Origin: Bacteroidota bacterium
Lineage (GTDB): Bacteria > Bacteroidota > Bacteroidia > JACCXN01
NCBI GenBank assembly: GCA_013696965.1
Contig: JACCXN010000005.1
Location: forward strand, 1-64,000
Reading direction: 5' to 3'
DNA length: 64,000 nucleotides
Notes under the pieces: generated by a model
Told to the model about the DNA's origin: nothing
Databases searched by the model: none
What the model saw: the letters and a program-made list of their open reading frames with translations, nothing else
Shown here: positions 2,955 through 43,102 of the stretch, one piece after another
Numbering within the stretch: the first letter of the stretch is position 1
How the letters are laid out: the number at the start of each line of letters is the position of its first letter
Made by a program: the position numbers and the translations under genes

Positions 2955-5435
2955 ATGAAGTTATTCGCCACATTAACTACTTACTTGCTTTTTGTTTTTA
3001 TTGTTATTTCAAACTCTTTTGCTCAGAAAAACAAGGGAGGAATACCCCTTAGCATGGAGAAAAAAATAAACTTACCCCTTCCCTACTTTCATACAATGCC
3101 TGCATTTAATGCTGTGGAAATGTTAGCGGAGGACGATTCACTAAATGCAAATAAAATAGGCCCCTTTAGATTTGGTAAAAATTTTAATACTGCTTTTAAT
3201 TTAGAAAATTCCGGAACCTGGACAAATCTTAAGCAAAGTGGACTGATATGGCGATTAGGCATTAGTTCACCAGGTGCTTATTCTATTAATTTAATTTTTG
3301 AGGATTATTATTTACCCCCGGGAGCATTCCTTTTTATTTATAATGAAAACAAAACGCATATTCTTGGTGCATTTACTCATTTAAACAACCATTCTTCCAG
3401 AAAATTTGCAACAGATTTGATAATGGGAGATAAAATAATATTGGAATACTATGAACCTGAAAAGGCAAAAATAAAGGGCTCATTATTAATAGCAACCGTT
3501 ACGCATGCTTATAGGGACATTTTAAAATTCAGCAAAAGTGATTTTGGCTCTTCAGGCCAATGCAACATAAATGTAAATTGTAAATTAGGTGAATCCTGGG
3601 AAGAGCAAATAAGATCCGTAGTAATGCTTGTGAGCGGAGGAAATGGATTTTGTTCAGGTGTATTAATAAACAATTCTGCTCTTGATGGCAAACCCTATAT
3701 TTTAACTGCTAATCATTGTGGGAATTCCGGTTTTGAATCTTGGATTTTTCGATTTAACTGGGAAGCTCCGGATTGTGAAAATCCTACCACAGCCCCACCC
3801 TTTCAATCTTTAACTGGTGCTAAAAAAAGGGCAAACAATCCTGTTTCCGATTTTTTACTTCTCGAGATGTTTGATAAAGTTCCCCAAAGTTATAATGCCT
3901 ATTTTTCTGGATGGGAAAATAAAAACAATCAATCAGAAAAAGGAGTTACAATTCATCATCCTAAGGGGGATATAAAAAAAATATCTGAATACATTAAACC
4001 AACAGTTAGTGAAAATATAGATGGGACAGAAATTTGGAAAGTAATCTCCTGGAATAAAGGAACTACTGAACCAGGCTCATCAGGTTCTCCACTTTTTGAT
4101 CAAAATCATAGAATTATAGGCCAATTATATGGAGGGCTGGCAACATGTGATAATCCCAAGGAAGATTATTATGGCAAACTTTCCACTTCCTGGGATGGTA
4201 TTTCCAATACTTTGCGATTAAGAGATTGGTTGGACCCGATAAACTCTGGAGTTACTTTTCTTAATGGTTATGATTTTGGAATTCCAGCTTTTTCACTAGA
4301 TGCAGGTATTATTGCCACTCTAATTCCGAAAAATGAATCTATTACTTGTGTTGATTCAATTACACCTGTTTTGTTAATTAAAAATTTTGGGTTGGAAACA
4401 ATAAATTCAGTAGTTATTGAATTTAAAATCAATAATTTACCGGCTCACAAACAGCTTTTTACCCTAAATTTAATTCAAGGTGATTTTGATACCCTTATTC
4501 TTAATACAATAGGTGTAACAGTTGGGGATAATTTTTTTACTGCTTTTGTTTCAAATCCAAATGAATCTATAGATCAAAATATGGCAAATGATTCAATTCG
4601 TGTGAATTTTAAAATAAAAAATATGGATACCATTATTTCCATTTCCCCTGCTTTTAGAGAAAATTTTGAAGGATTGGATTTTCCTCCCGAAGGCTGGGAT
4701 CGAATTAACCCCGATAATAGCATAAGTTGGACAAGAACAAAAGTAGCCAGTAGCTTTTCGGAGAATGGTGCCTCCATTAGAATTACAAACTTTCACTACA
4801 ATACAAATTATCAGAGTGATTATTTACTTTCTCCGGCTTTAAATTTCACCGGCAGTTCTCCCCCAACCTTAGAATTTGATGTTGCTTATTCCCGGTTTTC
4901 ATCCCTAAAACATGATTCACTTATCGTTTCGGTTTCTGTTGATTGTATGCTTAATTGGGAAAGGATCTATGCAAAAGGCAATGCACTTCTTTCAACAAAT
5001 AATGGGGAAAATGTTACAATTTCTTTTGTTCCAAAAAAAGATGAATGGAGAAAGGAAATTATTAATCTGAATCAATTTAAAGACAACCAAAGTGTATTTT
5101 TACGGTTTGAAAACATCAATGGAAATGGGAATAATTTATATCTTGACAATATAGCCGTTTATGATGCGCTTAACAGCATTTCAAATGAAAACCCAAACCC
5201 TCATTTTAGCATATTTCCAAATCCATCTTCATCAATCTTTATTGTTAAATCAACAGAACAGGTTGAAGAAATTACAGTTTACAATTTATTAGGTGAGGTA
5301 ATTTTAAAGCTATTTGTTAAAAAGCATGAACAACAACCACAAATTGATTTATCAGCTTTTCCTGATGGAATCTATATTGTTGAACTCATTTTCCTTGAAG
5401 GAAAAAAATGGGGGAAATTAAGTAAATCAAATTAA
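2955..5435 (+). CDS. Secreted trypsin-like (lysyl endopeptidase-like) protease with T9SS sorting domain
   Basis: This 826-residue exported serine endopeptidase is probably a T9SS cargo. A signal peptide covers residues 1-23 (ending SFAQ). The chymotrypsin-fold catalytic domain spans about 200-430. The triad is visible as His254 (LTANHCG), Asp299 (PVSDFLLLEM) and Ser376 (PGSSGSPLF), in the style of Achromobacter lysyl endopeptidase. A cleaved-adhesin/MAM-like domain starts near residue 570 (ENFEGLDFPPEGWD). The C-terminal ~75 residues form a type A sorting domain (SIFPNPSS, DLSAFPDGIYIVEL). The gene is transcribed alone and converges on a small minus-strand lipoprotein gene 8 bp away. Substrate specificity is inferred from family resemblance only. 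Confidence 0.93.
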   Translation: MKLFATLTTYLLFVFIVISNSFAQKNKGGIPLSMEKKINLPLPYFHTMPAFNAVEMLAEDDSLNANKIGPFRFGKNFNTAFNLENSGTWTNLKQSGLIWRLGISSPGAYSINLIFEDYYLPPGAFLFIYNENKTHILGAFTHLNNHSSRKFATDLIMGDKIILEYYEPEKAKIKGSLLIATVTHAYRDILKFSKSDFGSSGQCNINVNCKLGESWEEQIRSVVMLVSGGNGFCSGVLINNSALDGKPYILTANHCGNSGFESWIFRFNWEAPDCENPTTAPPFQSLTGAKKRANNPVSDFLLLEMFDKVPQSYNAYFSGWENKNNQSEKGVTIHHPKGDIKKISEYIKPTVSENIDGTEIWKVISWNKGTTEPGSSGSPLFDQNHRIIGQLYGGLATCDNPKEDYYGKLSTSWDGISNTLRLRDWLDPINSGVTFLNGYDFGIPAFSLDAGIIATLIPKNESITCVDSITPVLLIKNFGLETINSVVIEFKINNLPAHKQLFTLNLIQGDFDTLILNTIGVTVGDNFFTAFVSNPNESIDQNMANDSIRVNFKIKNMDTIISISPAFRENFEGLDFPPEGWDRINPDNSISWTRTKVASSFSENGASIRITNFHYNTNYQSDYLLSPALNFTGSSPPTLEFDVAYSRFSSLKHDSLIVSVSVDCMLNWERIYAKGNALLSTNNGENVTISFVPKKDEWRKEIINLNQFKDNQSVFLRFENINGNGNNLYLDNIAVYDALNSISNENPNPHFSIFPNPSSSIFIVKSTEQVEEITVYNLLGEVILKLFVKKHEQQPQIDLSAFPDGIYIVELIFLEGKKWGKLSKSN

Positions 5436-5443
5436 AGAAAAAC

Positions 5444-5590
5444 TTATTTTCCTTTCTTGGGGATAATCATTCTATCCATTGAATTTACTTTCCTACCTTT
5501 TGTTTTTTTGGAAGAGGAACATCCTGAAAAACTCAAAAAACAAAACATAAAAAAAAGAAGAACCAATATTTTACATGCTAGTGTTTTCAT
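5444..5590 (-). CDS. Very small lipoprotein
   Basis: A 48-residue reading frame starts at the ATG at 5590 (MKTLACKILVL). It has a hydrophobic signal of about 22 residues, a lipobox (SFSGC) and a short basic tail (KKTKGRKVNSMDRM). An upstream in-frame start would add up to 21 hydrophobic residues and spoil the signal peptide, so the internal ATG is preferred. It ends 8 bp from the convergent protease gene. Such basic mini-lipoproteins are common in Bacteroidota but I know no function for them. The main support is the clean signal and lipobox. Confidence 0.55.
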   Translation of the reverse strand: MKTLACKILVLLFFMFCFLSFSGCSSSKKTKGRKVNSMDRMIIPKKGK

Positions 5591-5794
5591 AATAGCCATT
5601 AATTTAATCCCAAAGTTAACAATAATGCCAATTAATGTCAATAATAATAGCATTATTATAAAGAAAAACCTATGAAAGTATTTAATTGTTGTCTGTTTTT
5701 TTCCGACTTTTAAATATTACCGGTTCTCATTATCCATTTTACCGGTTCTAACATTAAAAACCCTTACCAACACCATTAAATCTGCTTACCTAAA

Positions 5795-7024
5795 CTAATT
5801 ATTCATTGCCTTTAATCTTTTAATAAGGGATGGATGTGAATAATATACGAATTCATAGGCAGAATGAGGGGTAAGATTACTCAAATTATCAGCAGAAAGT
5901 TTTTTTAGTGCAGAAATTAATGCATTTTTATTATACGTTTCTTTTGAATATTTATCCGCTTCATATTCATTTTTCCTGGAATTTGCATTCATAATAATTC
6001 CTAATAATAAAGAAAGTGGTGAATAAAGCAGTGAAAAAGCCAGAATTCCAATATGAAAACTGTCATTTTCAACCCCTAGGGCACCAGCTAAGGCAGGATT
6101 ATCAATAACCAAGGAAAGAATAAAAAGCATAAGTCCTGTTTGTAGAACACCCATAATTATGCCTTGCAAAGTATGTTTCTTTTTGAAATGCCCTACCTCA
6201 TGGGCTAAAATCGCAACTAGCTCCTCAACAGTATGCTTTTCAATGAGTGTATCATATAAAACAATTTTTTTTCGTGGACCCAACCCGCTAAAAAAAGCAT
6301 TAGCCTTTGAACTACGTTTAGATCCATCCATTACATAAAGATTATCAAGTTTAAAATTAACTTTATTGCAATAGGATTCAATTGCAGATCTAAGTTCGCC
6401 TTCTGGTAATGGGGATAATTTATTGAACAAGGGAATAATTACAGAGGCATAAAACATGGTTGAAAGAACCATAAAAACAATTAAGGTAATCCAAATGTAT
6501 AACCAGAAGAACATTCCTGTTTCATGGTATATCCATGTAATTAGAGCTATTAAGCCTCCGCCAATAACTACAGAAAGTAAATATCCTTTAATTTTATCCA
6601 TAATGTATGTTTTTGCTGTAGTTTTATTAAAGCCATATTTCTCCTCAATTACAAAAGTATCATACAAATCAAAAGGAGTAAAAATAATATCGGATGCAAT
6701 ACCAAGGATTCCGAAGAATAAAATTGCAATTAGAATTGGATTATCAGAGAAGGATCTTGCTAAATTATCAACAAAGGCAAACCCTTTGAATAAAAGCATG
6801 AATAAAATCAAAACAAGACTAAGAGTGCTTGTAATCATTGAAAACATAGCGCTTTCCTTGTTATATTCCTGAGATTTTCGGTATTTAATTTCATCATAAA
6901 CATCTTCTGCTTCCTTTGGTGGTGTATCATGCATATTCTTAATATTCAGGTAATTTAATATGCGTTCAAAAAGGTAATTGAAAATAATTATGGCAATTAT
7001 GATGTAAAAGATAATATGTTCCAT
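5795..7024 (-). CDS. M48 family CAAX-type membrane metalloprotease (Ste24-like)
   Basis: This 409-residue integral membrane zinc protease resembles CAAX prenyl protease 1. It has several predicted membrane helices: near the N-terminus, around 60-120, 145-205 and 290-345. The zinc motif HEVGH lies at residues 275-279 (His275, Glu276, His279), and the third ligand Glu sits in the RKNEYEADKYSKE segment near 360. An N-terminal M48_M-type region (SDNPILIAILFFGILG, FDLYDTFVIEEKYGFNKTT) is typical of the Ste24 subgroup. Bacterial members are thought to work in membrane-protein quality control rather than on prenylated proteins. It stands alone between a convergent lipoprotein gene and a decayed gene. 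Confidence 0.93.
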   Translation of the reverse strand: MEHIIFYIIIAIIIFNYLFERILNYLNIKNMHDTPPKEAEDVYDEIKYRKSQEYNKESAMFSMITSTLSLVLILFMLLFKGFAFVDNLARSFSDNPILIAILFFGILGIASDIIFTPFDLYDTFVIEEKYGFNKTTAKTYIMDKIKGYLLSVVIGGGLIALITWIYHETGMFFWLYIWITLIVFMVLSTMFYASVIIPLFNKLSPLPEGELRSAIESYCNKVNFKLDNLYVMDGSKRSSKANAFFSGLGPRKKIVLYDTLIEKHTVEELVAILAHEVGHFKKKHTLQGIIMGVLQTGLMLFILSLVIDNPALAGALGVENDSFHIGILAFSLLYSPLSLLLGIIMNANSRKNEYEADKYSKETYNKNALISALKKLSADNLSNLTPHSAYEFVYYSHPSLIKRLKAMNN

Positions 7025-31348: not shown

Positions 31349-32707
31349 ATGGCTCAAATTGAATTGATTTTACCTAAAATGGGTGAGAGTGTTGCTGAGG
31401 CAACCATTATAAAGTGGTTAAAAAATGAAGGGGAGCATATTGATGCAGACGAATCTGTTTTAGAAATTGCTACAGATAAAGTTGATTCTGAAGTGCCTTC
31501 CCCAACTCAGGGTATTTTGATTAAAAGAATGTTCAATGAGGGTGATGTTGTACAAGTTGGTTCAGTAATAGCATTGATTGGCTCTAAAGAGGAGGTAAAA
31601 AACGAACCGGTAACACAGCCGGAAAAAATGACTGCTTCGGCAGTTCAAAATTCGATTCCAGCTCCAAGACATGCAGAAATAAGTGTTAAGGAAATTGAAA
31701 TTCCAAGAACCTCAGAAGGTGGAAAGTTCTACTCTCCTCTAGTACGAAATATAGCAAAAACAGAAGGTATTTCAACTACCGAACTTGAAAAGTTGCATGG
31801 AACGGGGTCTGATGGAAGGGTAACAAAAAATGATATTTTAGACTACCTATCCAAACGCTCCAATGGAACAAATATTTCTGAACCAGTTTTGGAGCAAAAT
31901 GGAAAAACAAGTTCAAGTCAACAAGTAAGTAATGTTCAAACACCGCAAATACAACAAGCCACCACATCAATAAAGCACCCCGTTGTTAGCGCTGGAGAAA
32001 ACGATGAGATAATTGAAATGGATAGGATGCGAAAGCTTATTGCAGACCATATGGTTATGTCCAAGCATGTTGCACCCCATGTTACATCATTCGTAGAAGT
32101 AGACGTTACCAACCTTGTGATGTGGAGGGAGAAAAACAAAAAGGAATTTGAAAAGCGCGAAGGAGAAAAAATAACTTATACCCCTATTTTTATCGAGGCT
32201 GTAACAAGGGCAATTAAAGAATTTCCAATGATCAACATTGCTGTTAGCGGAAGCAATATTATAAAAAGAAAAAACATAAACATAGGTATAGCAACTGCCC
32301 TGCCCACAGGAAATTTAATTGTTCCTGTAATAAAAAATGCTGATCAAATGAATTTGGTCGGATTAACAAAAACTGTAAATGATCTTGTTGCAAGGGCAAG
32401 AGTGAATAAGCTAAAACCAGATGATATTCAAGGTGGTACATTCACAATTTCCAATGTAGGAACTTTTGGAAACGTGATGGGAACACCAATTATTAATCAG
32501 CCACAAGTTGCAATACTTGCTGTTGGTGCAATACGTAAAAAACCAGTGGTAATTGAAACTCCACAAGGTGATACCATAGGAATCCGTCATATGATGTTCT
32601 TATCTATGTCTTATGATCATAGGGTTGTAGATGGAATGTTAGGTGGAACTTTTATAAGGAGAGTTGGTGATTTACTTGAAAGTTTTGATTTAAACCATCA
32701 GTTCTGA
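31349..32707 (+). CDS. Dihydrolipoamide acyltransferase (E2) of a 2-oxoacid dehydrogenase complex
   Basis: This 452-residue E2 core enzyme transfers acyl groups from the lipoyl arm to CoA. The lipoyl domain is at 1-80 with lipoyl-Lys44 (IATDKVDSEVP), a peripheral-subunit-binding domain at about 130-170 (SPLVRNIAKTEGISTTELEKL), and the catalytic domain at about 215-452 with His424 in SYDHRVVDGMLGG. It most resembles branched-chain-type E2. No E1 or E3 gene is adjacent. Instead, a gldL-like gene begins 16 bp downstream, suggesting co-transcription with the motor genes. Confidence 0.93.
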   Translation: MAQIELILPKMGESVAEATIIKWLKNEGEHIDADESVLEIATDKVDSEVPSPTQGILIKRMFNEGDVVQVGSVIALIGSKEEVKNEPVTQPEKMTASAVQNSIPAPRHAEISVKEIEIPRTSEGGKFYSPLVRNIAKTEGISTTELEKLHGTGSDGRVTKNDILDYLSKRSNGTNISEPVLEQNGKTSSSQQVSNVQTPQIQQATTSIKHPVVSAGENDEIIEMDRMRKLIADHMVMSKHVAPHVTSFVEVDVTNLVMWREKNKKEFEKREGEKITYTPIFIEAVTRAIKEFPMINIAVSGSNIIKRKNINIGIATALPTGNLIVPVIKNADQMNLVGLTKTVNDLVARARVNKLKPDDIQGGTFTISNVGTFGNVMGTPIINQPQVAILAVGAIRKKPVVIETPQGDTIGIRHMMFLSMSYDHRVVDGMLGGTFIRRVGDLLESFDLNHQF

Positions 32708-32723
32708 TCCAATTAATCCACTT

Positions 32724-33650
32724 ATGAAAAACAAGGATACTTACTTTGATTTTATTAATTTCGCCTATGGAATAGGCGCTGCCATTGTAATCATTGGTGC
32801 TATGTTTAAATTCCTTGGTTGGGATTATGCCAATGAATTTTTCCTAGTTGGATTAACTACTGAGGCTGTTGTTTTTAGCATATCTGCTTTTGAATTTAAA
32901 AAAAAGAAAACGCCTGCATCAGCGGTAAAAGTTTATCATTGGGAAAATATTTTTCCACAACTTTTAACATCTGAACTACATAATCCGGATGTACTTTCCA
33001 AAGTTGCAGAGGAACAAACTCTGAATACTGTTGCTATAACAAAATCTCTTGGAAATTTTAATCTAGCAATTGAAAAATTAAACGAAGTTAGCAACCAGTT
33101 GGTTCTTGGTATTAACACCATGTCCAATGCTATTAAACAATTGGAAAAAACAACTGAAGATTATTCCATGGAAATGGGTTTGCTTAAAGAAAATGTACAG
33201 CAATTAAATTCTTTGCATAATTCCCATTTAAGAAGTCTAGCCTTAACTCTTCCTTGTTATGAAAAAGAATTTATCAATCTTTCCAAATCCCTTTGCTCTA
33301 TAAATGAAAAATATATTAATCACAATACCAGTTTTGATCATGCTTCCTTGGTTTATGATAAACAGTTTAAGGAGTTAAATGAAAACCTTCAAAAAACAAA
33401 TTCTATTTACTTAAGGCAAATGAACCAATTGGAAGATTCATCCAGCGGATATGAAAAAGAATTCACTATGCTAAATGAAAACCTTTTGAAAATAAATTCC
33501 TTTTATACTGAACATTTATCCAAAAACGGAAGAAATTCTGAGGATTTTGAAAAAGAATTTGCTAGCCTAGGGGCAAACATGTCAAAAGTAAATTCTTTTT
33601 ATACTGATATGCTAGGAGCAGTAGGAAGAATTACTCGCCCTACTGTTTAA
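32724..33650 (+). CDS. GldL-like inner-membrane motor protein
   Basis: This 308-residue GldL/PorL-type protein has two transmembrane helices at about 11-31 and 38-57. A Lys sits in helix 1 (GAMFKFLG, Lys29) and a Glu in helix 2 (GLTTEAVVFSISAFE, Glu47), matching the charged pair seen in proton-driven GldL. The cytoplasmic tail carries five copies of a 32-residue repeat starting at residues 147, 179, 211, 243 and 275 (pattern YEKEF..LN.NL.KINSFY...L). Canonical GldL has similar but fewer, less regular units. It is followed by a gldM-like gene after 19 bp. gldK and gldN are absent. Role: probable stator of a proton-motive-force-driven complex. Confidence 0.85.
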   Translation: MKNKDTYFDFINFAYGIGAAIVIIGAMFKFLGWDYANEFFLVGLTTEAVVFSISAFEFKKKKTPASAVKVYHWENIFPQLLTSELHNPDVLSKVAEEQTLNTVAITKSLGNFNLAIEKLNEVSNQLVLGINTMSNAIKQLEKTTEDYSMEMGLLKENVQQLNSLHNSHLRSLALTLPCYEKEFINLSKSLCSINEKYINHNTSFDHASLVYDKQFKELNENLQKTNSIYLRQMNQLEDSSSGYEKEFTMLNENLLKINSFYTEHLSKNGRNSEDFEKEFASLGANMSKVNSFYTDMLGAVGRITRPTV

Positions 33651-33669
33651 ACATACAGAAATAGCTTTA

Positions 33670-34995
33670 ATGGAAGATAACAACAACAGTGATCGTAAGG
33701 CACTCAGGAACAAAATGGTAGGCTTTATGTACTTGATTTTTATAGTTCTTGCGTTCCTTTATATTCCTTCTGATTTTATTGACACAATTCGGGATGTAAA
33801 TACTTCTTTTGAAAAATCTTCAAAAGAAATGAATAGCATGAAAAATTACAATTTCCTGTTAATTAAAGCTGGATTAAAAGCTGATTCTACAATAAACAAT
33901 AAGATAATTGCAATTGACTTTAAAAGAATTTCAGTATTATCCGACAGCATATGCAATCAGCTTGAATTTATTAAGCAAAGGGTTTTGGATGTTTCTGGGG
34001 GAATCAATAAGTATGGTTTTCTAAAAAATGCCAAGGACAACCAATTTACTGATGAAATAATGCTTGAGCAGGGAGTTGCAAAAAAAATTCATACCATGTT
34101 ACATAATTTTAAAACACATATAAATAATGCAGGAACTTCTATCAATCCTGTTTTGCTTGATTCGATTTTACCAACAGATGAATTTGTAAACACCTCCACT
34201 GGGAAGAGTCAAACCTGGGAGAAATTTTATTTTTATAAAATGCCATTAACAGTTTCAATTGCCTTGATTGCAAAATTTCAAAATGATGTAAAACAAATTG
34301 AATTCATGGCAATGGAAGAATATCTTTTTAACCTTAAAGAGAATTATGAATTGACTTTGATTCCAAAAAACAAAAAAACAGAAGAAAACAAGACATTAAA
34401 AAACAACCCAAAAATCCTTGATCCTGAAGCTTACATTAAAAATCCCGGATTTAATATTTTATATGTTGATGTTGACAATCCATTAAAAATTTATCATCCC
34501 GGATTTGGAAATTCTGATATTATTGCGGAGGTATCAAAGGGTGAAATATTTAAAAAGGACAGTCTTTTTTACCTGAGGGTAAATAATGAAGGAATTGTTG
34601 TTGTTACTGCATTTAGTAAAGAAAATAAAAAATTATTGGCGAAGCAGGAATTCCTTGTAAAGAATCTACCTGAACCCTCTGCCTTTATTGCTGAGAGAAA
34701 AGGGGGCAATATTTCTTCAAAAATATTCAAACTGCAAAAGCATATTGAGGTACAAAATGAAATTTCAGATAACAAGGATGGTTACATGGTCAAAAACTTT
34801 TCCTTAATAAGGATTAGTGCAAGTTCGGAAATGCAAAAATCCAAAAACAACCATGGATCTTTTTTCAACTCAAGCACACGTGATTTAATTGATGGAGCTC
34901 AAAGAGGAGATATATTTATTTTTGACAACATCGAGGTAGAAATCCCAGGAGGAAGCATAAAAAAGGTTTCCTCAATTGTATTTACAGTTATTTAA
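33670..34995 (+). CDS. GldM-like periplasmic motor protein
   Basis: This 441-residue protein has one N-terminal membrane helix at about 16-33 (MVGFMYLIFIVLAFLYIPS) after a short cytoplasmic segment, then a long periplasmic part. The segment RNKMVGFMYLIFIVLAF and the following FIDTIRDVNTSFEKSS closely follow the GldM/PorM start. Beta-rich periplasmic domains follow; the last (about 340-441) ends GSIKKVSSIVFTV like the GldM C-terminal domain. Canonical GldM is about 510-520 residues, so roughly one domain's worth is missing. In known systems GldM spans the periplasm and transmits GldL motion to outer-membrane partners. It is flanked by the gldL-like and beta-helix genes. Confidence 0.83.
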   Translation: MEDNNNSDRKALRNKMVGFMYLIFIVLAFLYIPSDFIDTIRDVNTSFEKSSKEMNSMKNYNFLLIKAGLKADSTINNKIIAIDFKRISVLSDSICNQLEFIKQRVLDVSGGINKYGFLKNAKDNQFTDEIMLEQGVAKKIHTMLHNFKTHINNAGTSINPVLLDSILPTDEFVNTSTGKSQTWEKFYFYKMPLTVSIALIAKFQNDVKQIEFMAMEEYLFNLKENYELTLIPKNKKTEENKTLKNNPKILDPEAYIKNPGFNILYVDVDNPLKIYHPGFGNSDIIAEVSKGEIFKKDSLFYLRVNNEGIVVVTAFSKENKKLLAKQEFLVKNLPEPSAFIAERKGGNISSKIFKLQKHIEVQNEISDNKDGYMVKNFSLIRISASSEMQKSKNNHGSFFNSSTRDLIDGAQRGDIFIFDNIEVEIPGGSIKKVSSIVFTVI

Positions 34996-35001
34996 ATATT
35001 T

Positions 35002-36351
35002 ATGGCTAAAATTAATTTGTTTTTTATATTACTGACTGTGATTTCAACCTCAGTTACAAGCTCATTAATAGCAACCAATTCAGAAATAATCGTAACAAAT
35101 TTCATTGAGAAAGATCATACTTTGGAAAAAGGAATTTATATCATTGAAAACAATGTAAAAGTTAGCAAAAATGCAACTCTTACAGTAAAATCAGGATGTA
35201 AACTTTATTTTAGAAAAGGAGCTTCATTAAAAATTGACGGGGGCCTTATTCTTGAGGGAAAACCAAACAACCTAATTGAATTAACTAGTGAGGACAAGGA
35301 AAATGAAGGTTTTGGAATAGTAATATCAGGATCAACCAAGGATAAAGTAATCATTATCAATTACACCAAATTCAGTTATTTGTTAGTTCCATTGAATTTT
35401 GAAAAAAACTGGGTAAGAAAAAAAATAAATATCGAGGATAATGTGTTTGAAAACATTATAACAGGAGAAAAATCAATCATTATCAGATGTCCTGATGAAA
35501 TTACCTCCAGGGATACAATTGAATTTAATTTTTCAAAAAATAATTTCATTCAAAACAACAGCAGTATTTTCATTGAAAACATTGAATCGAATTTGTTAAA
35601 TTTACAATTCAGGTACAACCTTATAACCCAAAACTATTTTTTTGGATTTGAAGTAGGAAGCAGTTTAAACGCTCCTGTTTCTACAACTTACAATAAAAAT
35701 GATCAAGCTTTTCTAGCAGATTTTTCCGGAAATTCTATTTTCAACAATTTTCTATTGCACTCCTCTAATGATACTGTAATTCAGGAAGTGAATTTTGGAA
35801 TTCAAGGACGTGCAGAAAAGTATTCCCTGAATGATAATTATTTTGGAAATAAAAATATTCCACAAATTCAAAAAACTTTTGATCATTTCAGCAATCACCA
35901 GTTTTCGCCTTTTGTCTTTATTGATACTGCTTTACAAGTACCATCAGATTCTGTTCACGGACATATCTGGAAAATTTCGATTAACAATAATGAATTGGTT
36001 CCGAAAAATTTTCTGCCTTTATTAACAGAGCAAAAACTGGAAATTCAGATAAGTTACAATAGATCATTAATCGTTCGCGAAGGAATTAATTATATTACTT
36101 ACTCATTTTTTGATAAAATTGACAATGAATTAAAAACTAAAAGTTTATCTTGTGCTTTAAAACTTAATAAAGAAAATAAATCTATCTCTTTTATTAGCAA
36201 AGATGAGGTATATATTAAGAACCCCAATGGATATTTTTCTATTAATGGTTTAACGGATAATGATGGATTTAGAGTGCCAAAGGTTTATATTGGTAAAGAA
36301 CAATTTAAAGTATTTTTAATTAATAACAACATCAAAATTAATCTTGAATGA
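35002..36351 (+). CDS. Exported beta-helix-like protein in the gldLM-like operon
   Basis: This 449-residue protein has a signal-like N-terminus (residues 1-24), and the following residues look like right-handed parallel beta-helix rungs (NATLTVKSGCKLYFRKGASL, IDGGLILEGKPNNLIELTSE). Asn-rich turns continue to about residue 290, and a distinct C-terminal domain follows (ELVPKNFLPLLTEQKLEIQI). I recognise no named family. It starts 7 bp after the gldM-like stop and its own stop overlaps the next start by 4 bp (ATGA), so it is firmly part of the operon. It occupies the position where gldN would sit but shows no GldN resemblance. Confidence 0.75.
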   Translation: MAKINLFFILLTVISTSVTSSLIATNSEIIVTNFIEKDHTLEKGIYIIENNVKVSKNATLTVKSGCKLYFRKGASLKIDGGLILEGKPNNLIELTSEDKENEGFGIVISGSTKDKVIIINYTKFSYLLVPLNFEKNWVRKKINIEDNVFENIITGEKSIIIRCPDEITSRDTIEFNFSKNNFIQNNSSIFIENIESNLLNLQFRYNLITQNYFFGFEVGSSLNAPVSTTYNKNDQAFLADFSGNSIFNNFLLHSSNDTVIQEVNFGIQGRAEKYSLNDNYFGNKNIPQIQKTFDHFSNHQFSPFVFIDTALQVPSDSVHGHIWKISINNNELVPKNFLPLLTEQKLEIQISYNRSLIVREGINYITYSFFDKIDNELKTKSLSCALKLNKENKSISFISKDEVYIKNPNGYFSINGLTDNDGFRVPKVYIGKEQFKVFLINNNIKINLE

Positions 36352-38330
36352 CAACTAAAGTTAAAATCACACTTTCTGCAGTTTTAGTTTTTCTTATTTA
36401 TTTTTCACCCCTAACTGCATCCAATATTGAAGATGGTTATAAAAAAAGTTTTGAAAAGGCAAATTTTCAACTTTATAATCAAATGTATACTAAGGCCTTA
36501 GATTTGTTTTTAAAAATAGATTCTCTTTATCCGGATAATTCCAACATTAATTTTAAGATTGGCCTTTGTTATTATAATTTACCAACAAATAAATTAAAAT
36601 CGATTCCTTTTTTTGAAAAAGCTGTTAAAAATTTATCTGAAAAATACAACGAGAAAAAAGCTACAGAAAAAAATGCTCCATATATTACCCTTTATTATTT
36701 AGCACAGGTTTATCATTTGAATTATAGTTTTGACAATGCATTAACCACATTTAACCAATTTAAAACCTTTATTGGAACAACTGATATTCAATTAAATAAG
36801 GAGGTTGACAATTACATAAAAATGTGTAATAATGGCAAAATGTTTGTAAACGCTCCAATCCAAATTGAGATTACAAACATAGGAGAGAAAATTAATTCTG
36901 TATATCCTGAATATGCTCCTGTGATATCTGCTGATGAATCAGTACTTATTTTTACTTCCAGAAGACCTGAGAGTGCTGGTGGTAAAAAGACTGAAGATGG
37001 TCAATACTTTGAGGACATTTATATTTCAACTAAAGAGAACGGGGAATGGAGCACACCTGTTAGCATAAGCCCTAATATCAATACCGCGGCTCATGAAGCA
37101 AGTGTAGGACTCTCAGTTGATGGACAGTCTCTACTTTTATATAAGAGTGAAGGACCTGAGGGCAATATTTATATTAGTAAACTTATAGGAGATAAATGGG
37201 AAGTTCCAGTTAAGCTATCAGAAAACATTACAGGAAAATCCTGGGAACCAAGTGCAAGTATTTCAGCAGACGGAAACAGCCTGTACTTTACAAGCGATAG
37301 AAAAGGCGGTTTTGGAGGAAGAGATATTTACAAATCAAAAAAACTTCCCAATGGTGATTGGAGTTTACCAGTGAATATGGGTCCTGAAATTAACACTGAA
37401 TTTGATGAGGACGGCCCTTTTATACACCCTGATGGAAAAACATTGTTTTTTAGTTCAAAAGGACATTCTACTATGGGCGGATTTGATGTATTCTTTAGCA
37501 TTATGGATGAAAACGGAAAATTTCAGAAGCCATCAAATCTTGGATATCCGGTTAACACAACAGATGATGACATTTATTATTCCCTTTCTGCAGATGGTAA
37601 AAGAGCATATTATTCTTCTTCAAAAGAGGGTGGTTTTGGCGAAAAGGATCTTTATTTGCTTAATTTTATTGAACATAAAGAAACTCCTCTTGCACTTATA
37701 AAAGGTACAATTCTGGATGTTTATGGGAATGTACCCCTGGTTGATATTATTGTAACAGATAATGAAACAGAGGAAATTGTAGGTATTTATTACCCAAATA
37801 CTAAAACAGGAAATTATCTTTTTATTTTACCCCCGGGAGCAAATTATAATATCTCCTATGAGGCCGAAGGATATCTTTTTAAATCCGAAAACATTGATGT
37901 TCCTATAGATGCAAACTATTATGTGATTAATCAATCAATCAATCTACAACTAATAGAGATAGGACAAAAAATAGTCCTTAACAATATTTTCTTTGACTTT
38001 GGTAAATCTACTTTACGCAGTACATCAAAAGTAGAACTTCAAAAACTTTATACCCTACTAGAAAAGAATCCATCACTTACTGTTGAAATTTCTGGTCATA
38101 CAGATCATATTGGTTCAAAAGAGATGAACGTTAAGCTTTCACAGGAAAGGGCCCAGGCTGTGGTAACATACATTACAGAAAAAGGAATGGGTGGTTCAAG
38201 ATTGCTTGCTAAAGGTTTTGGAAGTGCGCAACCTCTAACAAATGGAAAGAATAATGATGGGTCTGACAATCCTGAAGGAATGCAGTTAAACAGAAGGGTT
38301 GAAATGAAAATTATAGGGATTAATAAATAA
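36348..38330 (+). CDS. PorE-like TPR/PD40/OmpA protein
   Basis: This 660-residue protein has a signal peptide (1-24), TPR-like helices (about 28-150) and five PD40 beta-propeller repeats (about 175-445, e.g. PEYAPVISADESVLIFTSRR, GGFGGRDIYKS). A carboxypeptidase-regulatory-like domain (about 455-540) and an OmpA C-terminal domain (about 544-660; GHTDHIGSKEMNVKLSQERA and NRRVE) follow. This is exactly the PorE (PG1058) architecture, the peptidoglycan-binding T9SS component of Porphyromonas. Expected location: periplasmic face of the outer membrane, bound to peptidoglycan. It overlaps the previous gene by 4 bp. There is no clear lipobox. Confidence 0.88.
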   Translation: MTTKVKITLSAVLVFLIYFSPLTASNIEDGYKKSFEKANFQLYNQMYTKALDLFLKIDSLYPDNSNINFKIGLCYYNLPTNKLKSIPFFEKAVKNLSEKYNEKKATEKNAPYITLYYLAQVYHLNYSFDNALTTFNQFKTFIGTTDIQLNKEVDNYIKMCNNGKMFVNAPIQIEITNIGEKINSVYPEYAPVISADESVLIFTSRRPESAGGKKTEDGQYFEDIYISTKENGEWSTPVSISPNINTAAHEASVGLSVDGQSLLLYKSEGPEGNIYISKLIGDKWEVPVKLSENITGKSWEPSASISADGNSLYFTSDRKGGFGGRDIYKSKKLPNGDWSLPVNMGPEINTEFDEDGPFIHPDGKTLFFSSKGHSTMGGFDVFFSIMDENGKFQKPSNLGYPVNTTDDDIYYSLSADGKRAYYSSSKEGGFGEKDLYLLNFIEHKETPLALIKGTILDVYGNVPLVDIIVTDNETEEIVGIYYPNTKTGNYLFILPPGANYNISYEAEGYLFKSENIDVPIDANYYVINQSINLQLIEIGQKIVLNNIFFDFGKSTLRSTSKVELQKLYTLLEKNPSLTVEISGHTDHIGSKEMNVKLSQERAQAVVTYITEKGMGGSRLLAKGFGSAQPLTNGKNNDGSDNPEGMQLNRRVEMKIIGINK

Positions 38331-38443
38331 AGGACAAAAAAATATTTATTCAATAAATCATATATTTGCTTTTAAACCAGCCATAACGGTTATTTTTTGA
38401 AAATTCAGTTGATGAAATTATTTCATGCAAAACCCACTTTAAA

Positions 38444-41350
38444 ATGAAAAAGCTTTTAATTTTCAACTTTCTTATTCTTTGTTCCACTGTGCTTTTTTCA
38501 CAGAATTTTGACAAAGGACTATTCAAAGAAAAATTCATTGAAGCACAATATCATATTGAATTTGAAAACTATAAACTGGCTCTTCCTATTTTTATTGAAC
38601 TAAATAAAATGGATCCTGAAAATTCAAATGTGAATTTCAAAGTTGGACTTTGCATGATTAAATCAAACATAAGAAAGGCAGAAGCTGTTGGTTTTCTTGA
38701 AAAAGCTGTATTAAATGTTTCACCAAATTACGATGATCTGAATCCCTTTGAAAAAAGAGCCCCGGTTAATGCTCTTTATTACCTTGGATTTGCCTATCAT
38801 ATTGCCTATAAATTAGATGAGGCAATTGCAACTTTTGAAAAATTCAAAAGCGTAATCAGCAAAAAAAATTATATGGTTGCTGACGCAGAAAGGTCAATAG
38901 TCATGTGTTTAAACGCTAAGGAATTCATAGGTAACAAAAAAGAATATATAATTGATTGTTTAAGTGACTCCATTAACACTCCTTATCCTGAATACAGCCC
39001 TGTTGTTTCCCTGGATGAATCAACCCTTATTTTTACAAGTAGAAGGGCTGAAGAATCAGGAAGCATCGCTGAATCCATGCATAATGAAGATATTTATATT
39101 TCTTATAAAGACAATAATGGTATTTGGTCGGCAGCAAAATCAATAGGCACAAGCATTAACACCATGGATCATGAGGCAAGTATTGGACTTTCTGCTGATG
39201 GACAAAAATTGTTTATCTATAAAAGTGATGATGGTGGTAGTATTTGGATGAGCGAACAGCTAAGTGAGAGCTGGTCTGTACCACAAAAGCTGGATTTTGA
39301 TGTTAATTCCGAACATTGGGAAACGCATGCAGTAATAACTGCTGAGCAGAAAACAATCTATTTTGCAAGCAACAGGCCAGGTGGCCAAGGTGGCAGGGAT
39401 ATTTGGATGTGTAAGAAATTGCCAAATGGAAAATGGGCAAAAGCACAAAATTTAGGAGCGCAGATAAACACAAAACATGATGAGGATGCTCCTTTTATAC
39501 ACCCCAATGGTAAAACAATTTACTTTAGCTCTGACGGTCATAAAACCATGGGAGGATTTGATATATTTTATTCTGAAATACAGGAAGATGGAAAATGGAG
39601 CAGCCCAATAAACATGGGTTATCCAATAAACACAACGGATGATGATATTTATTTTGTCACATCAGGTGATGGAAAAAGAGGTTATTTTTCTTCCCTTCGT
39701 GAGAACTGCATTGGAGAAAAAGATATTTTCATGGTTACAATTGATGATATTCAAGTGGAATCAATTACTGTACTGAAAGGAAAAATCACCATCGATGGAG
39801 ATGAAAAACTTCCCTCCGGTGCCCTTATTTATGTAACTGATGTAGAAACAGGAATTGTGGTTAACGAATCAAGGCCTAACCCTAGAACAAGTGTTTATAC
39901 ACTTGCTTTATCTCCAGGCGAGCATGGCAAAACATACTCTATTAGTTATTCTGCCGAAGGATTTGAACCTATTACCGCAACCATTGAAATTGAAGCAGGA
40001 ATGGGTTACCAGGAAATTGAAAAAGAATTGTTCCTTCACCCAATTAATTTCGAAAGCAAAACCAAAGGTACAGTTGCACTTTCCGGAACAATTAAAAACA
40101 GGCAAGGAGAATTTATTTCCGCCACAATTTCTGTAATTGATAACATTACTGGTGAAGAAATTTTTACAGCCCTAACAAAAGGTACTGAGGCACCCTATTA
40201 TTTTGTTTTGCAATTGGGGAAAAATTACAATATATCCTATGAAGCTGAAGATTACCTGTTTCATTCAGAAAATCTAAACATTCCAAATAAACCAGAATAT
40301 TCAGAAATTAAAAAGAATATTATTCTTGAAAAAATAGAAACAGGAACCAAAATTGTTTTAAATAATATTTTCTTTGATCATAATAAATCCATATTGCGAA
40401 AGGAATCTAATGTTGAATTGGAAAAATTGTATACTTTACTAAACAAAAGACCTGAATTAAAAATTGAAGTTGGCGGCCACACAGACAGTAAAGGAAACGC
40501 TGAGGTAAATATGGTTTTATCCAAAGCAAGAGCTCAGGCAGTTGTTGATTACCTGACAAAAAATGGAATAAACAGATCACGCCTTGTAGCAAAAGGTTAT
40601 GGAAAAGATGCTCCTATTGCTCCGAATAATTTAGCCAATGGAAAACCGGATTTAGATGGTATGCAATTAAACAGGCGTGTAGAGTTTAAAATTCTTGATT
40701 ATACAAAAGCTGAACTGGAAAAAGTTAGAGAAAATCAAACTAATACGGCAGAAGTTGAAACCATAATAATTGACAACAGAAGTGACCTGGTAACCAAACC
40801 AGTTAATTACACTACTAAATCCCCGTTATATGGTGTTCAAATCGGAGCTTTTCAAACATCTTTACCGAACAACGATTTCCCAAATGTAAAAAACGTTCAT
40901 AGTTTTATTGATAATGATGGAATGATTCGATATGTCATTGGTAGTTTTAACATAAGGAGCCAGGCTGAAACCCTTAAAAAAGCTGTTGTTGAAGCGGGAT
41001 ACAAGGATGCTTTTATTGTAGACGTGAATAAGGAAAAAAAGTTTACAAATGAAGTTGTTCATGAAAAAAAGCCGAAATCTCTGGAAAAAGTTGAATACAT
41101 GGTTCAGGTTGGTGCATACTCCACTACAATAACTGCCCAGGCAGCAAAGAGTATGGTAGAAATTGACGGTATTATTGAAAAACAAAACGGAGAGTTAATG
41201 CTCCTAACGGTTGGATCTTTCTCTAACATAGAAAGTGCTGAAAAATTAAAAAACGAACTTGTTGCAAAAGGGGTTCAGGAAGCTTTTGTAATTGCTTTTT
41301 TAAATGATAAAAAAATAACGCTACAGGCTGCAAAAGAATTTGCAAAATAA
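38444..41350 (+). CDS. PorE-like TPR/PD40/OmpA protein with two SPOR-like domains
   Basis: This 968-residue paralogue of the preceding protein has a signal peptide (about 1-19), TPR-like region (20-150) and PD40 repeats (175-455). It carries two carboxypeptidase-like domains instead of one (about 462-550 and 555-640) and an OmpA C-terminal domain (about 642-755; GHTDSKGNAEVNMVLSKARA). Two SPOR-like domains complete it, at about 794-870 (YGVQIGAFQTS) and 883-960 (YMVQVGAYSTT), each with an RYVIGSF- or LLTVGSF-type strand. SPOR domains normally bind denuded glycan strands, so the protein appears to grip peptidoglycan twice. It starts 113 bp after the previous gene. Confidence 0.88.
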   Translation: MKKLLIFNFLILCSTVLFSQNFDKGLFKEKFIEAQYHIEFENYKLALPIFIELNKMDPENSNVNFKVGLCMIKSNIRKAEAVGFLEKAVLNVSPNYDDLNPFEKRAPVNALYYLGFAYHIAYKLDEAIATFEKFKSVISKKNYMVADAERSIVMCLNAKEFIGNKKEYIIDCLSDSINTPYPEYSPVVSLDESTLIFTSRRAEESGSIAESMHNEDIYISYKDNNGIWSAAKSIGTSINTMDHEASIGLSADGQKLFIYKSDDGGSIWMSEQLSESWSVPQKLDFDVNSEHWETHAVITAEQKTIYFASNRPGGQGGRDIWMCKKLPNGKWAKAQNLGAQINTKHDEDAPFIHPNGKTIYFSSDGHKTMGGFDIFYSEIQEDGKWSSPINMGYPINTTDDDIYFVTSGDGKRGYFSSLRENCIGEKDIFMVTIDDIQVESITVLKGKITIDGDEKLPSGALIYVTDVETGIVVNESRPNPRTSVYTLALSPGEHGKTYSISYSAEGFEPITATIEIEAGMGYQEIEKELFLHPINFESKTKGTVALSGTIKNRQGEFISATISVIDNITGEEIFTALTKGTEAPYYFVLQLGKNYNISYEAEDYLFHSENLNIPNKPEYSEIKKNIILEKIETGTKIVLNNIFFDHNKSILRKESNVELEKLYTLLNKRPELKIEVGGHTDSKGNAEVNMVLSKARAQAVVDYLTKNGINRSRLVAKGYGKDAPIAPNNLANGKPDLDGMQLNRRVEFKILDYTKAELEKVRENQTNTAEVETIIIDNRSDLVTKPVNYTTKSPLYGVQIGAFQTSLPNNDFPNVKNVHSFIDNDGMIRYVIGSFNIRSQAETLKKAVVEAGYKDAFIVDVNKEKKFTNEVVHEKKPKSLEKVEYMVQVGAYSTTITAQAAKSMVEIDGIIEKQNGELMLLTVGSFSNIESAEKLKNELVAKGVQEAFVIAFLNDKKITLQAAKEFAK

Positions 41351-41527
41351 ATAGCAAAGCAATTTAACTTTGTGAACCTATGCTTTTCACACCTTTATTA
41401 AACGCATTTTACTTTTCGAGATGTGATTTTAAATAATATTAACATTTGTTGATATTATTTGCCGAAAATGCAGTAGAAATAATAGCAAATTTTGTATTAT
41501 TGGTAGTTGATATTTTTGATTTGAACC

Positions 41528-43102
41528 ATGCGCTATTCCTTTTCAATACTATTTTTAATTTCCATTTTATCTTTTTCTTACTTGGCGGCTTCAGCCCAAA
41601 CTGATCCACGGGAAGCAAAAGAACATTATAATAAAAGAAATTATGTAGCTGCAGTGTTGGTTTTTGATAAACTTATTAAAGAAGAGCCAGGTAATTCGGA
41701 TTACCTTCATAAAGCGGGCATTTGTTATCTTAAAACAAATATTGATAAAACCAAGGCCATCCCCTATCTTGAAAAAGCAGTGAAAATTGTAAAAGTAGAC
41801 CCTGAAGCATTTTTTGATTTAGGGTTAGCCTATCAGTATGCTTATCGTTTTGATGATGCTATTAAAAGTTTTGAAAAATATAAAACTTTTATAGCAGGGA
41901 AAGACATTGAATTAAAAAAAGCTGCAAGACAAATAGAAACTTGCTACAATGCAAAGGAATTAATCAAATATCCATTGAATGTAACATTTGAAAATATGGG
42001 TCCAGAAATAAATACTGAGTATCCTGATTACTATCCCTTTATTGCTCCGGATGAAACCTTCTTGATTTTCACTACGCGTAGAAAAGGAGCTCCTGCGGTA
42101 ATGGAATTTGATGGGTTCTACTCTTCCGATATTTATATATCAAATGCATTGAATGGAGAATTCACAAAATCCAAGTCTATTGGTAATTCAATAAATTCCA
42201 GTTTTGATGAGCAAGCAGTAGGTATGTCTGGAGACGGAAATCAGCTTTTTGTATATATTGATAATATTAAGGAATTTGGAGATATTTATCTCTCTGAAAG
42301 AAAGCCAGGAGGTACGTATAAGAAACCAGTAATAATAGGCGAAGCTGTAAATTCAAAGTCTTTAGAAACATCTGGCACCATTTCATACGATGATAACATT
42401 CTTTTTTATGCAAGCGATAAACCCGGAGGTTTTGGCGGCAGGGACATTTACATGACAAGAAAGTTACCAAATGGTAATTGGGCCCAGTCTCAAAATTTGG
42501 GTCCAAATGTTAATTCTGCTTATAATGAAGATTTTCCTAATATTCTTTCAGATGGAAAAACCCTTTATTTTGCATCTGAAGGGCATATGGGTATAGGAGG
42601 TTATGATATATTTCATACTCAATGGAATGAAGAATCCAATACCTGGTCTACACCAAAAAATGCCGGCTACCCTTTAAATACTCCAGAGGACAATCATATG
42701 ATAACATTTACCGAAGATGGAAAACATGGCTATACCTCTTTATTAAGAAAAGGTGGGTATGGAGATCTGGATATTTACAAAGTAACTTTTAATGAGGTAG
42801 AAGCTCAACAAACTGTAATTAGAGGGATATTATCCTCTCTTGATACACTTCAACCAGTTACTGCACCGTTAATAACATTGTTTGACTTAAATAATTCTGA
42901 TGCAGAGCCCAATGTTTATTCAATAAATCCAAATAATAACAGTTGTACAATTATTGTTGTGCCCGGGAAATATGAGCTTGTAATAGAAGCAGATGGATTT
43001 GATGATTACAAGGAAAAACTAGTGATTTTTGATAAGGACGGTTGGCAAGCGCAAATTGAAAAATATTTAATAATGAAGCCAACAAATTACAAAATAAAAT
43101 GA
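41528..43102 (+). CDS. TPR/PD40 protein lacking the OmpA domain
   Basis: This 524-residue third member of the series has a signal peptide (1-24, ending AASAQ), TPR helices (about 25-140) and PD40 repeats (about 165-425; TSGTISYDDNILFYASDKPG, GGFGGRDIYMTRKLPNG). One carboxypeptidase-like domain follows, and the protein ends without an OmpA or SPOR domain. The shared motif GGFGGRDIY...KLPNG shows common ancestry with the two upstream proteins. It follows after 177 bp and may have its own promoter (TATTTTTG at 41511-41518, unusually close to the ATG). It could act as an adaptor that does not touch peptidoglycan. Confidence 0.85.
   Translation: MRYSFSILFLISILSFSYLAASAQTDPREAKEHYNKRNYVAAVLVFDKLIKEEPGNSDYLHKAGICYLKTNIDKTKAIPYLEKAVKIVKVDPEAFFDLGLAYQYAYRFDDAIKSFEKYKTFIAGKDIELKKAARQIETCYNAKELIKYPLNVTFENMGPEINTEYPDYYPFIAPDETFLIFTTRRKGAPAVMEFDGFYSSDIYISNALNGEFTKSKSIGNSINSSFDEQAVGMSGDGNQLFVYIDNIKEFGDIYLSERKPGGTYKKPVIIGEAVNSKSLETSGTISYDDNILFYASDKPGGFGGRDIYMTRKLPNGNWAQSQNLGPNVNSAYNEDFPNILSDGKTLYFASEGHMGIGGYDIFHTQWNEESNTWSTPKNAGYPLNTPEDNHMITFTEDGKHGYTSLLRKGGYGDLDIYKVTFNEVEAQQTVIRGILSSLDTLQPVTAPLITLFDLNNSDAEPNVYSINPNNNSCTIIVVPGKYELVIEADGFDDYKEKLVIFDKDGWQAQIEKYLIMKPTNYKIK

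Follow-up and report, generated by a model that had tools for sequence, protein, structure and literature searches.

Results

A second GldL-GldM gene pair beside a β-helix gene

The locus described here occupies positions 32724 to 43102 of the window, by which we mean the whole 64,000-nucleotide stretch that was analysed (contig JACCXN010000005.1, positions 1 to 64,000, of the Bacteroidota bacterium assembly GCA_013696965.1). It contains adjoining genes for homologs of GldL and GldM, the ring and axle proteins of the motor that serves the type IX secretion system (T9SS) and gliding, here called GldL2 and GldM2, and a third gene for an exported β-helix protein (BH). The genes are arranged as follows.

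32724-33650, + strand: GldL2, motor ring subunit, 308 aa, two transmembrane (TM) helices; PF22827, TIGR03513
33670-34995, + strand: GldM2, motor axle/shaft, 441 aa, one TM helix; PF12081, PF21602, PF12080
35002-36351, + strand: BH, exported β-helix and β-sandwich protein, 449 aa; AlphaFold2 model
36348-38330, + strand: TPR-PD40-OmpA protein of PorE-like architecture; PD40 1e-24, OmpA 9e-21
38444-41350, + strand: TPR-PD40-OmpA protein with two C-terminal SPOR domains; OmpA 1e-20, PD40 1e-18, SPOR 2e-11
41528-43102, + strand: TPR-PD40 protein without OmpA; PD40 1e-16, TPR_2 1e-6

The first-pass annotation of this stretch had described adjoining gldL-like and gldM-like genes without gldK or gldN, and Pfam and NCBIfam searches bore this out: both open reading frames (ORFs) are intact, and the locus contains neither gldK nor gldN. 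GldL2 matched GldL_N (PF22827; 6e-21) and TIGR03513 (107 bits; cut-off 68.3). It carries Y15, K29, and E47, which are invariant across 15 aligned GldL2 proteins; E47 aligns with Flavobacterium johnsoniae E49, an essential GldL residue (PMC8986121), and E57 was matched by eye to GldL E59, which is required for SprB movement and dispensable for SprB secretion (PMC8986121). The cytoplasmic coiled-coil tail of GldL2 is long and contains repeated motifs, the whole protein reaching 308 aa as against 155-219 aa in its relatives. GldM2 matched GldM_1st (3e-19), GldM_3rd (2.5e-8), and GldM_4th (4e-8), and its TM helix has an Arg at the R9 position. No GldM_2nd domain (D2) was detected, the 42 aa between D1 and D3 leaving too little room for it, and the score against TIGR03517 was 129.7 bits, under the cut-off of 180. 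By profile comparison, the GldM2 group matched canonical GldM over its full length with a probability of 99.8%. These features are consistent with the window pair belonging to the GldLM motor family, from which a 5:2 assembly and proton-driven rotation would be carried over.

The host genome has a separate, complete porP-gldK-gldL-gldM-gldN-gldN locus on contig C9, where GldL and GldM are ordinary and GldM has all four domains. The single copy of SprA is likewise on C9, whereas the window lies on C5. Contig C3 gave a further PF22827 match, of 18 bits in a 903-aa frame, which was under the cut-off and was disregarded. In a tree of the N-terminal parts of GldL, built from 117 columns with few canonical rows and long branches, 55 GldL2 rows were split from 9 canonical rows with 100/100 support, and the GldL2 of the window grouped with those of loci L024 and L025 within a set of 11 (100/99). 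GldL2 scores over 395 genomes of the class were bimodal, at 113-155 bits for GldL2 and at most 95 bits for all other matches listed. The second motor proposed in the first-pass annotation, for which a gldKLMN locus elsewhere in the genome and the position of GldL2 in a tree had been named as checks, thus held on both counts. Together with the retained motor residues and the conservation of the gene pair in other genomes, these results give good support to the conclusion that the locus encodes a second, divergent GldLM motor besides the canonical T9SS/gliding motor.

The BH gene is the conserved neighbor of the motor genes

Relatives of the locus were found by profile search and by exact matching of a DNA pattern encoding MFKF(x)GW against 84,980 species genomes; the use of this pattern biases the named set toward loci with the motif. 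Removal of five duplicate contigs left 54 loci besides the window, and GldL2 heads the operon in all of them. A single GldM is present in seven of them; 45 either carry two GldMs in tandem or break off within this stretch, and 2 break off directly after GldL2. All 33 loci whose sequence continues past GldM have a BH-type protein in the next position, and the spacing was tight, with median gaps of 8 bp between GldL and GldM, -1 bp between the two GldMs, and 2 bp between GldM and BH. Two further BH loci, L041 and L048, are cut by contig ends. No match to the gldK or gldN models was found in any GldL2 operon read, and these operons therefore fall outside the T9SS core as defined by gldKLMN. The seven-gene order, whose conservation in other Bacteroidota had been named as a further check, is not kept in the relatives. 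These results show that the conserved partner of the motor is the third gene, not the PorE-like genes. Profile searches with the β-helix domain also gave many weak matches below ~60 bits; those inspected (L052-L056) lacked motor genes.

The BH of the window had no family match in Pfam or NCBIfam, T9SS sorting domains included. Its AlphaFold2 model (predicted local distance difference test score, pLDDT, 85.7; predicted template modeling score, pTM, 0.86) has a signal helix, a right-handed β-helix, and a β-sandwich without a barrel, in agreement with the exported β-helix-like protein expected from the first reading of the sequence. The nearest solved folds were PL6 lyases, which matched weakly (best E 6e-3), and a PDB sequence search with the β-helix alignment returned nothing useful. 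We also considered BH as the track protein GldK/PorK, whose fold is like that of formylglycine-generating enzyme (FGE) (PMC12421860); this assignment was rejected on the modeled β-helix and β-sandwich and on the lack of any FGE or GldK family match.

Complete BH-type ORFs of the relatives are longer (~670-880 aa) and usually extend into a C-terminal barrel; we refer to these as BHB. The barrel scored over the cut-off for DUF6089/PorG in L024 (3e-19), L025 (1.6e-18), L041 (4.7e-15), and L153 (2.3e-16), and in L045 a stop lies between the β-helix part and the barrel part. An AlphaFold2 model of the L024 BHB (pLDDT 76, pTM 0.58) contains the β-helix, the β-sandwich, a helical linker, and eight barrel strands, and its best fold matches in the PDB were OmpA-type barrels. 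PorG is an outer-membrane barrel that is disulfide-bonded to GldK and is thought to be driven along the track in this way (PMC12635249). The PorG of the host has a C-tail cysteine (Cys241), and no C-tail cysteine is conserved among the BHB proteins. Two stand-alone PorG-like (DUF6089) proteins, 306-308 aa long and lacking a C-tail cysteine, are encoded at G000:C74:43770-44375 and G000:C97:9418-10110 (L156 and L159). They are possible candidates for a barrel partner of the window BH; since genomes that carry the fusion also have stand-alone DUF6089 proteins, neither can be assigned to it.

In 41 loci, GldL2 is preceded by a conserved gene whose product is exported and has a coiled coil and a C-terminal TM helix (for example, 5304-5828 of the two-GldM locus L051). 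Three more loci have a similar gene and three Bacteroidales loci (L116, L144, and L153) a longer version, which in L153 includes a sub-threshold SPOR-like part; no coiled-coil gene of that type adjoins GldL2 in the window. The anchor of the GldL ring has been called unidentified in a review (PMC9389320), and the upstream protein is a candidate for this anchor or for a motor regulator.

PorE-like genes follow the motor in the window only

Three TPR/PD40 proteins had been described downstream of BH, two of them as PorE-type, and had been read as a dedicated peptidoglycan anchor. The domain content stood for two of the three genes, in which PD40 and OmpA were significant, with TPR and CRD-like matches under the Pfam cut-offs. 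Membership of PorE itself did not follow: the two OmpA-bearing copies scored 284 and 303 bits against the curated PorE family (cut-off 600), the 36348-38330 protein reaching 284 bits there and 325 bits against CHU_0125 (cut-off 620). PorE is an outer-membrane lipoprotein (PMC7192894); inspection of the window copies by eye found no cysteine at the signal-peptide cleavage site and no evident lipobox. Furthermore, PorE-like genes follow the motor in the window only and are lacking in the relatives, save for an OmpA barrel protein after the motor in L025, and the host genome contains 35 matches to the TPR-PD40-OmpA family. On these scores, neighbors, and paralog numbers, the notion of a dedicated anchor was not sustained, and the PorE-like genes were rejected as the defining partner of the motor.

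Most relatives carry two GldM genes

The axle gene is doubled in most relatives (for example, L046-L051, L084, L114, and L149). Four tandem-GldM copies from two loci had no GldM match above the Pfam cut-off; by profile comparison, the two sets of copies matched GldM2 over their full length, with probabilities of 98.4 and 99.2%. An Arg corresponding to F. johnsoniae Arg9 is present in 33 of 33 second copies and in all 11 members of the GldM2 group, which takes in both copies of two Bacteroidales loci (L116 and L153). In the 43 first copies, by contrast, this position is always occupied by Asn, Ser, Thr, Ile, or Leu, and a Lys or Arg follows three residues later in 41 of them. We infer that the two copies form a heterodimer. 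According to the published view, no more than one GldM chain at a time pairs its Arg9 with GldL Glu49 (PMC12239597), and a heterodimer in which one charge is displaced would put this single-chain pairing to the test.

The operon is rare and co-occurs with T9SS

GldL2 exceeded 100 bits in 12 of the 395 class genomes, and two more have BH at a contig end, which together amount to ~3.5% in five families. When 396 genomes were sampled evenly over the phylum, GldL2 was found solely in the genome of the window. The two other genomes of its family, 81-86% complete, gave no match. Each of the 14 operon genomes sampled also encodes SprA and GldN; the module is thus an addition to T9SS, and most T9SS-bearing genomes are without the second motor. 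Every named carrier is a metagenome-assembled genome, and one (L139) is a chromosome record (CP051243.1). We found no description of the operon in the open-access literature searched; subscription papers and most preprints lay outside this search, and a prior description is possible.

Neighboring genes and other GldM variants

The genes of the window locus are separated, in order from GldL2, by 19 bp, 6 bp, a 4-bp overlap between BH and the 36348-38330 gene, 113 bp, and 177 bp. The first-pass values of 19 bp and of a 4-bp overlap were correct, and the gap given as 7 bp is actually 6 bp. Because of the 113-bp and 177-bp gaps, tight coupling ends after the fourth gene, and operon membership of 38444-41350 and 41528-43102 is unproven. 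A gene for a 2-oxoacid dehydrogenase E2 acyltransferase (31349-32707) lies on the same strand and stops 16 bp ahead of GldL2, and the motor transcript may be common with this metabolic gene. Promoter and terminator scans returned only chance numbers.

Short GldM matches at L007-L022 were rejected as members of the window's family, being mostly fusions of two GldL_N-like parts with GldM_1st that lack the operon. These GldL-GldM fusion proteins (~350-430 aa; two GldL_N-like TM hairpins and GldM_1st; for example, L008 9263-10555 and L020 9587-10639) occur in many class genomes without gldK or gldN alongside. Two GldM matches no more than ~5 kb apart were seen in each of G039:C52, G078:C10, G085:C49, and G090:C2, which suggests that canonical-type GldM, too, occurs in tandem copies. 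GldM-like proteins of ~715-760 aa with no GldL found alongside were met at L028 298-2445, L029 7746-9899, and G065:C52:62586-63140.

Discussion

On balance, we think it probable that the locus encodes a compact second GldLM motor that uses a β-helix to drive an outer-membrane barrel, in a form that has been modified in this species. In T9SS, the D4 domain of PorM engages PorN of the ring (PMC12421860). By analogy, the flow of protons between five GldL2 and two GldM2 subunits would turn the GldM2 shaft; judging from gene linkage and domain content, its D4 head would engage the β-helix where the T9SS head engages GldN, and torque or lateral force could thereby reach the outer-membrane barrel. 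On the simplest reading of the same evidence, the β-helix would replace the GldK/GldN contact and the fused barrel the disulfide-linked PorG; with the barrel and the periplasmic part in one polypeptide, neither GldK/GldN nor the disulfide would be needed. The barrel is missing in the window and a TPR-PD40-OmpA gene overlaps BH; in this species, the most likely recipient of the force from the β-helix would therefore be either a separate barrel or the overlapping peptidoglycan-binding TPR-PD40-OmpA proteins, the latter route leading to the link between the outer membrane and peptidoglycan. As the end task, movement or positioning of outer-membrane proteins seems likeliest, followed by outer membrane-peptidoglycan remodeling and then by an auxiliary drive for T9SS.

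Several observations weigh against this interpretation. The DUF6089 barrel is absent from the BH of the window; barrels of relatives other than the four over the cut-off were weaker or were recognized solely by our own hidden Markov model; the full-length BHB model from L024 is of moderate quality, as its pTM shows; and the GldL tree has the short alignment and few canonical rows given above.

The pair might instead be an accessory motor of the host T9SS or gliding machinery, with GldM2 docking on the canonical GldK/GldN track and BH acting as an adaptor or regulator. The presence of SprA and GldN in every sampled operon genome fits this idea, as does the retention in GldM2 of D3 and D4, the latter being the domain that meets PorN (PMC12421860), and so does E57 of GldL2, the counterpart of the SprB-movement residue E59. 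We nevertheless regard it as unlikely, because the motor is linked to BH/BHB and in no locus read to gldK or gldN, both GldL2 and GldM2 have diverged widely from their canonical counterparts (some of the paired GldMs being beyond Pfam detection), and most T9SS genomes lack the module. A Tol-Pal-like role, in which the motor acts through BH to move or tighten the outer membrane-peptidoglycan link formed by CpoB-TolB-Pal-like TPR-PD40-OmpA proteins, for example, at the division site, draws on the window's own neighbors: the BH gene shares 4 bp with a TPR-PD40-OmpA gene, which is followed by one encoding OmpA and two SPOR domains. In Bacteroidetes, PorE itself has been interpreted as a CpoB-TolB-Pal fusion tethering the outer membrane to peptidoglycan (PMC12204202), and the Bacteroidales relative L153 has the sub-threshold SPOR-like protein upstream of GldL2. 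This role appears quite unlikely, however, given that the relatives have no PorE-like genes beside the motor, that the host has many TPR-PD40-OmpA paralogs, and that the window copies score far under both curated cut-offs; in addition, an operon found in so small a share of class genomes is no general replacement for Tol-Pal.

The losses of D2 and of the barrel, the sub-threshold TIGR03517 score, and the lack of the operon in the two other, incompletely assembled genomes of the family could also be taken as signs of a decaying, functionless duplicate of the canonical motor. Such decay is highly improbable: the ORFs are all intact, the motor residues are retained, and the operon is kept in 54 other loci over deep divergence, in a separate clade with full support.

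The reading of a β-helix-coupled second motor has a broader form, which we regard as possible rather than probable: the operons may represent a new class of GldLM envelope machine, apart from secretion and gliding, that comprises a motor-driven β-helix-barrel polypeptide and, in most lineages, an obligate one-Arg GldM heterodimer. If so, this heterodimer would break the alternating two-arginine model of the 5:2 motor. The two-GldM relatives, with one copy lacking the motor Arg, offer a natural test of motor stepping. A separate, conserved GldLM clade with its own β-helix/barrel partner shows re-use of the T9SS/gliding motor family, and the recently reported PorG-GldK disulfide link seems to have a natural fused counterpart. 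The three-to-five-gene partner set should also make force transfer from GldLM to the outer membrane easier to study than in the large T9SS.

With GldLM/PorLM of F. johnsoniae and Porphyromonas gingivalis, the pair shares the GldL TM hairpin with its conserved Glu, Lys, and Tyr, the GldM TM Arg and D1, D3, and D4, and the adjoining position of the two genes; it differs in forming a separate clade, in having a β-helix(-barrel) partner without GldK/GldN, in the loss of D2 from the window GldM2, and in the two GldM genes of many relatives. The barrel at the C-terminus of BHB in the relatives is of the same family as PorG, but it is covalently fused to a periplasmic β-helix, has no conserved C-tail cysteine, and is lacking from the window protein. 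Two window genes after BH share the architecture of the PorE/CHU_0125 family (TPR, PD40 propeller, CRD, and OmpA), whereas they are without a lipobox, score far below the cut-offs, have many paralogs, and are not conserved with the motor. Finally, the relatives resemble the 5:2-type AglRQS motor of Myxococcus, which has two axle proteins, in having one ring gene and two axle genes; unlike AglRQS, their motor is of the GldLM rather than the MotAB type, and, outside the Bacteroidales loci with Arg in both copies, one of the paired GldMs always lacks the motor-position Arg.

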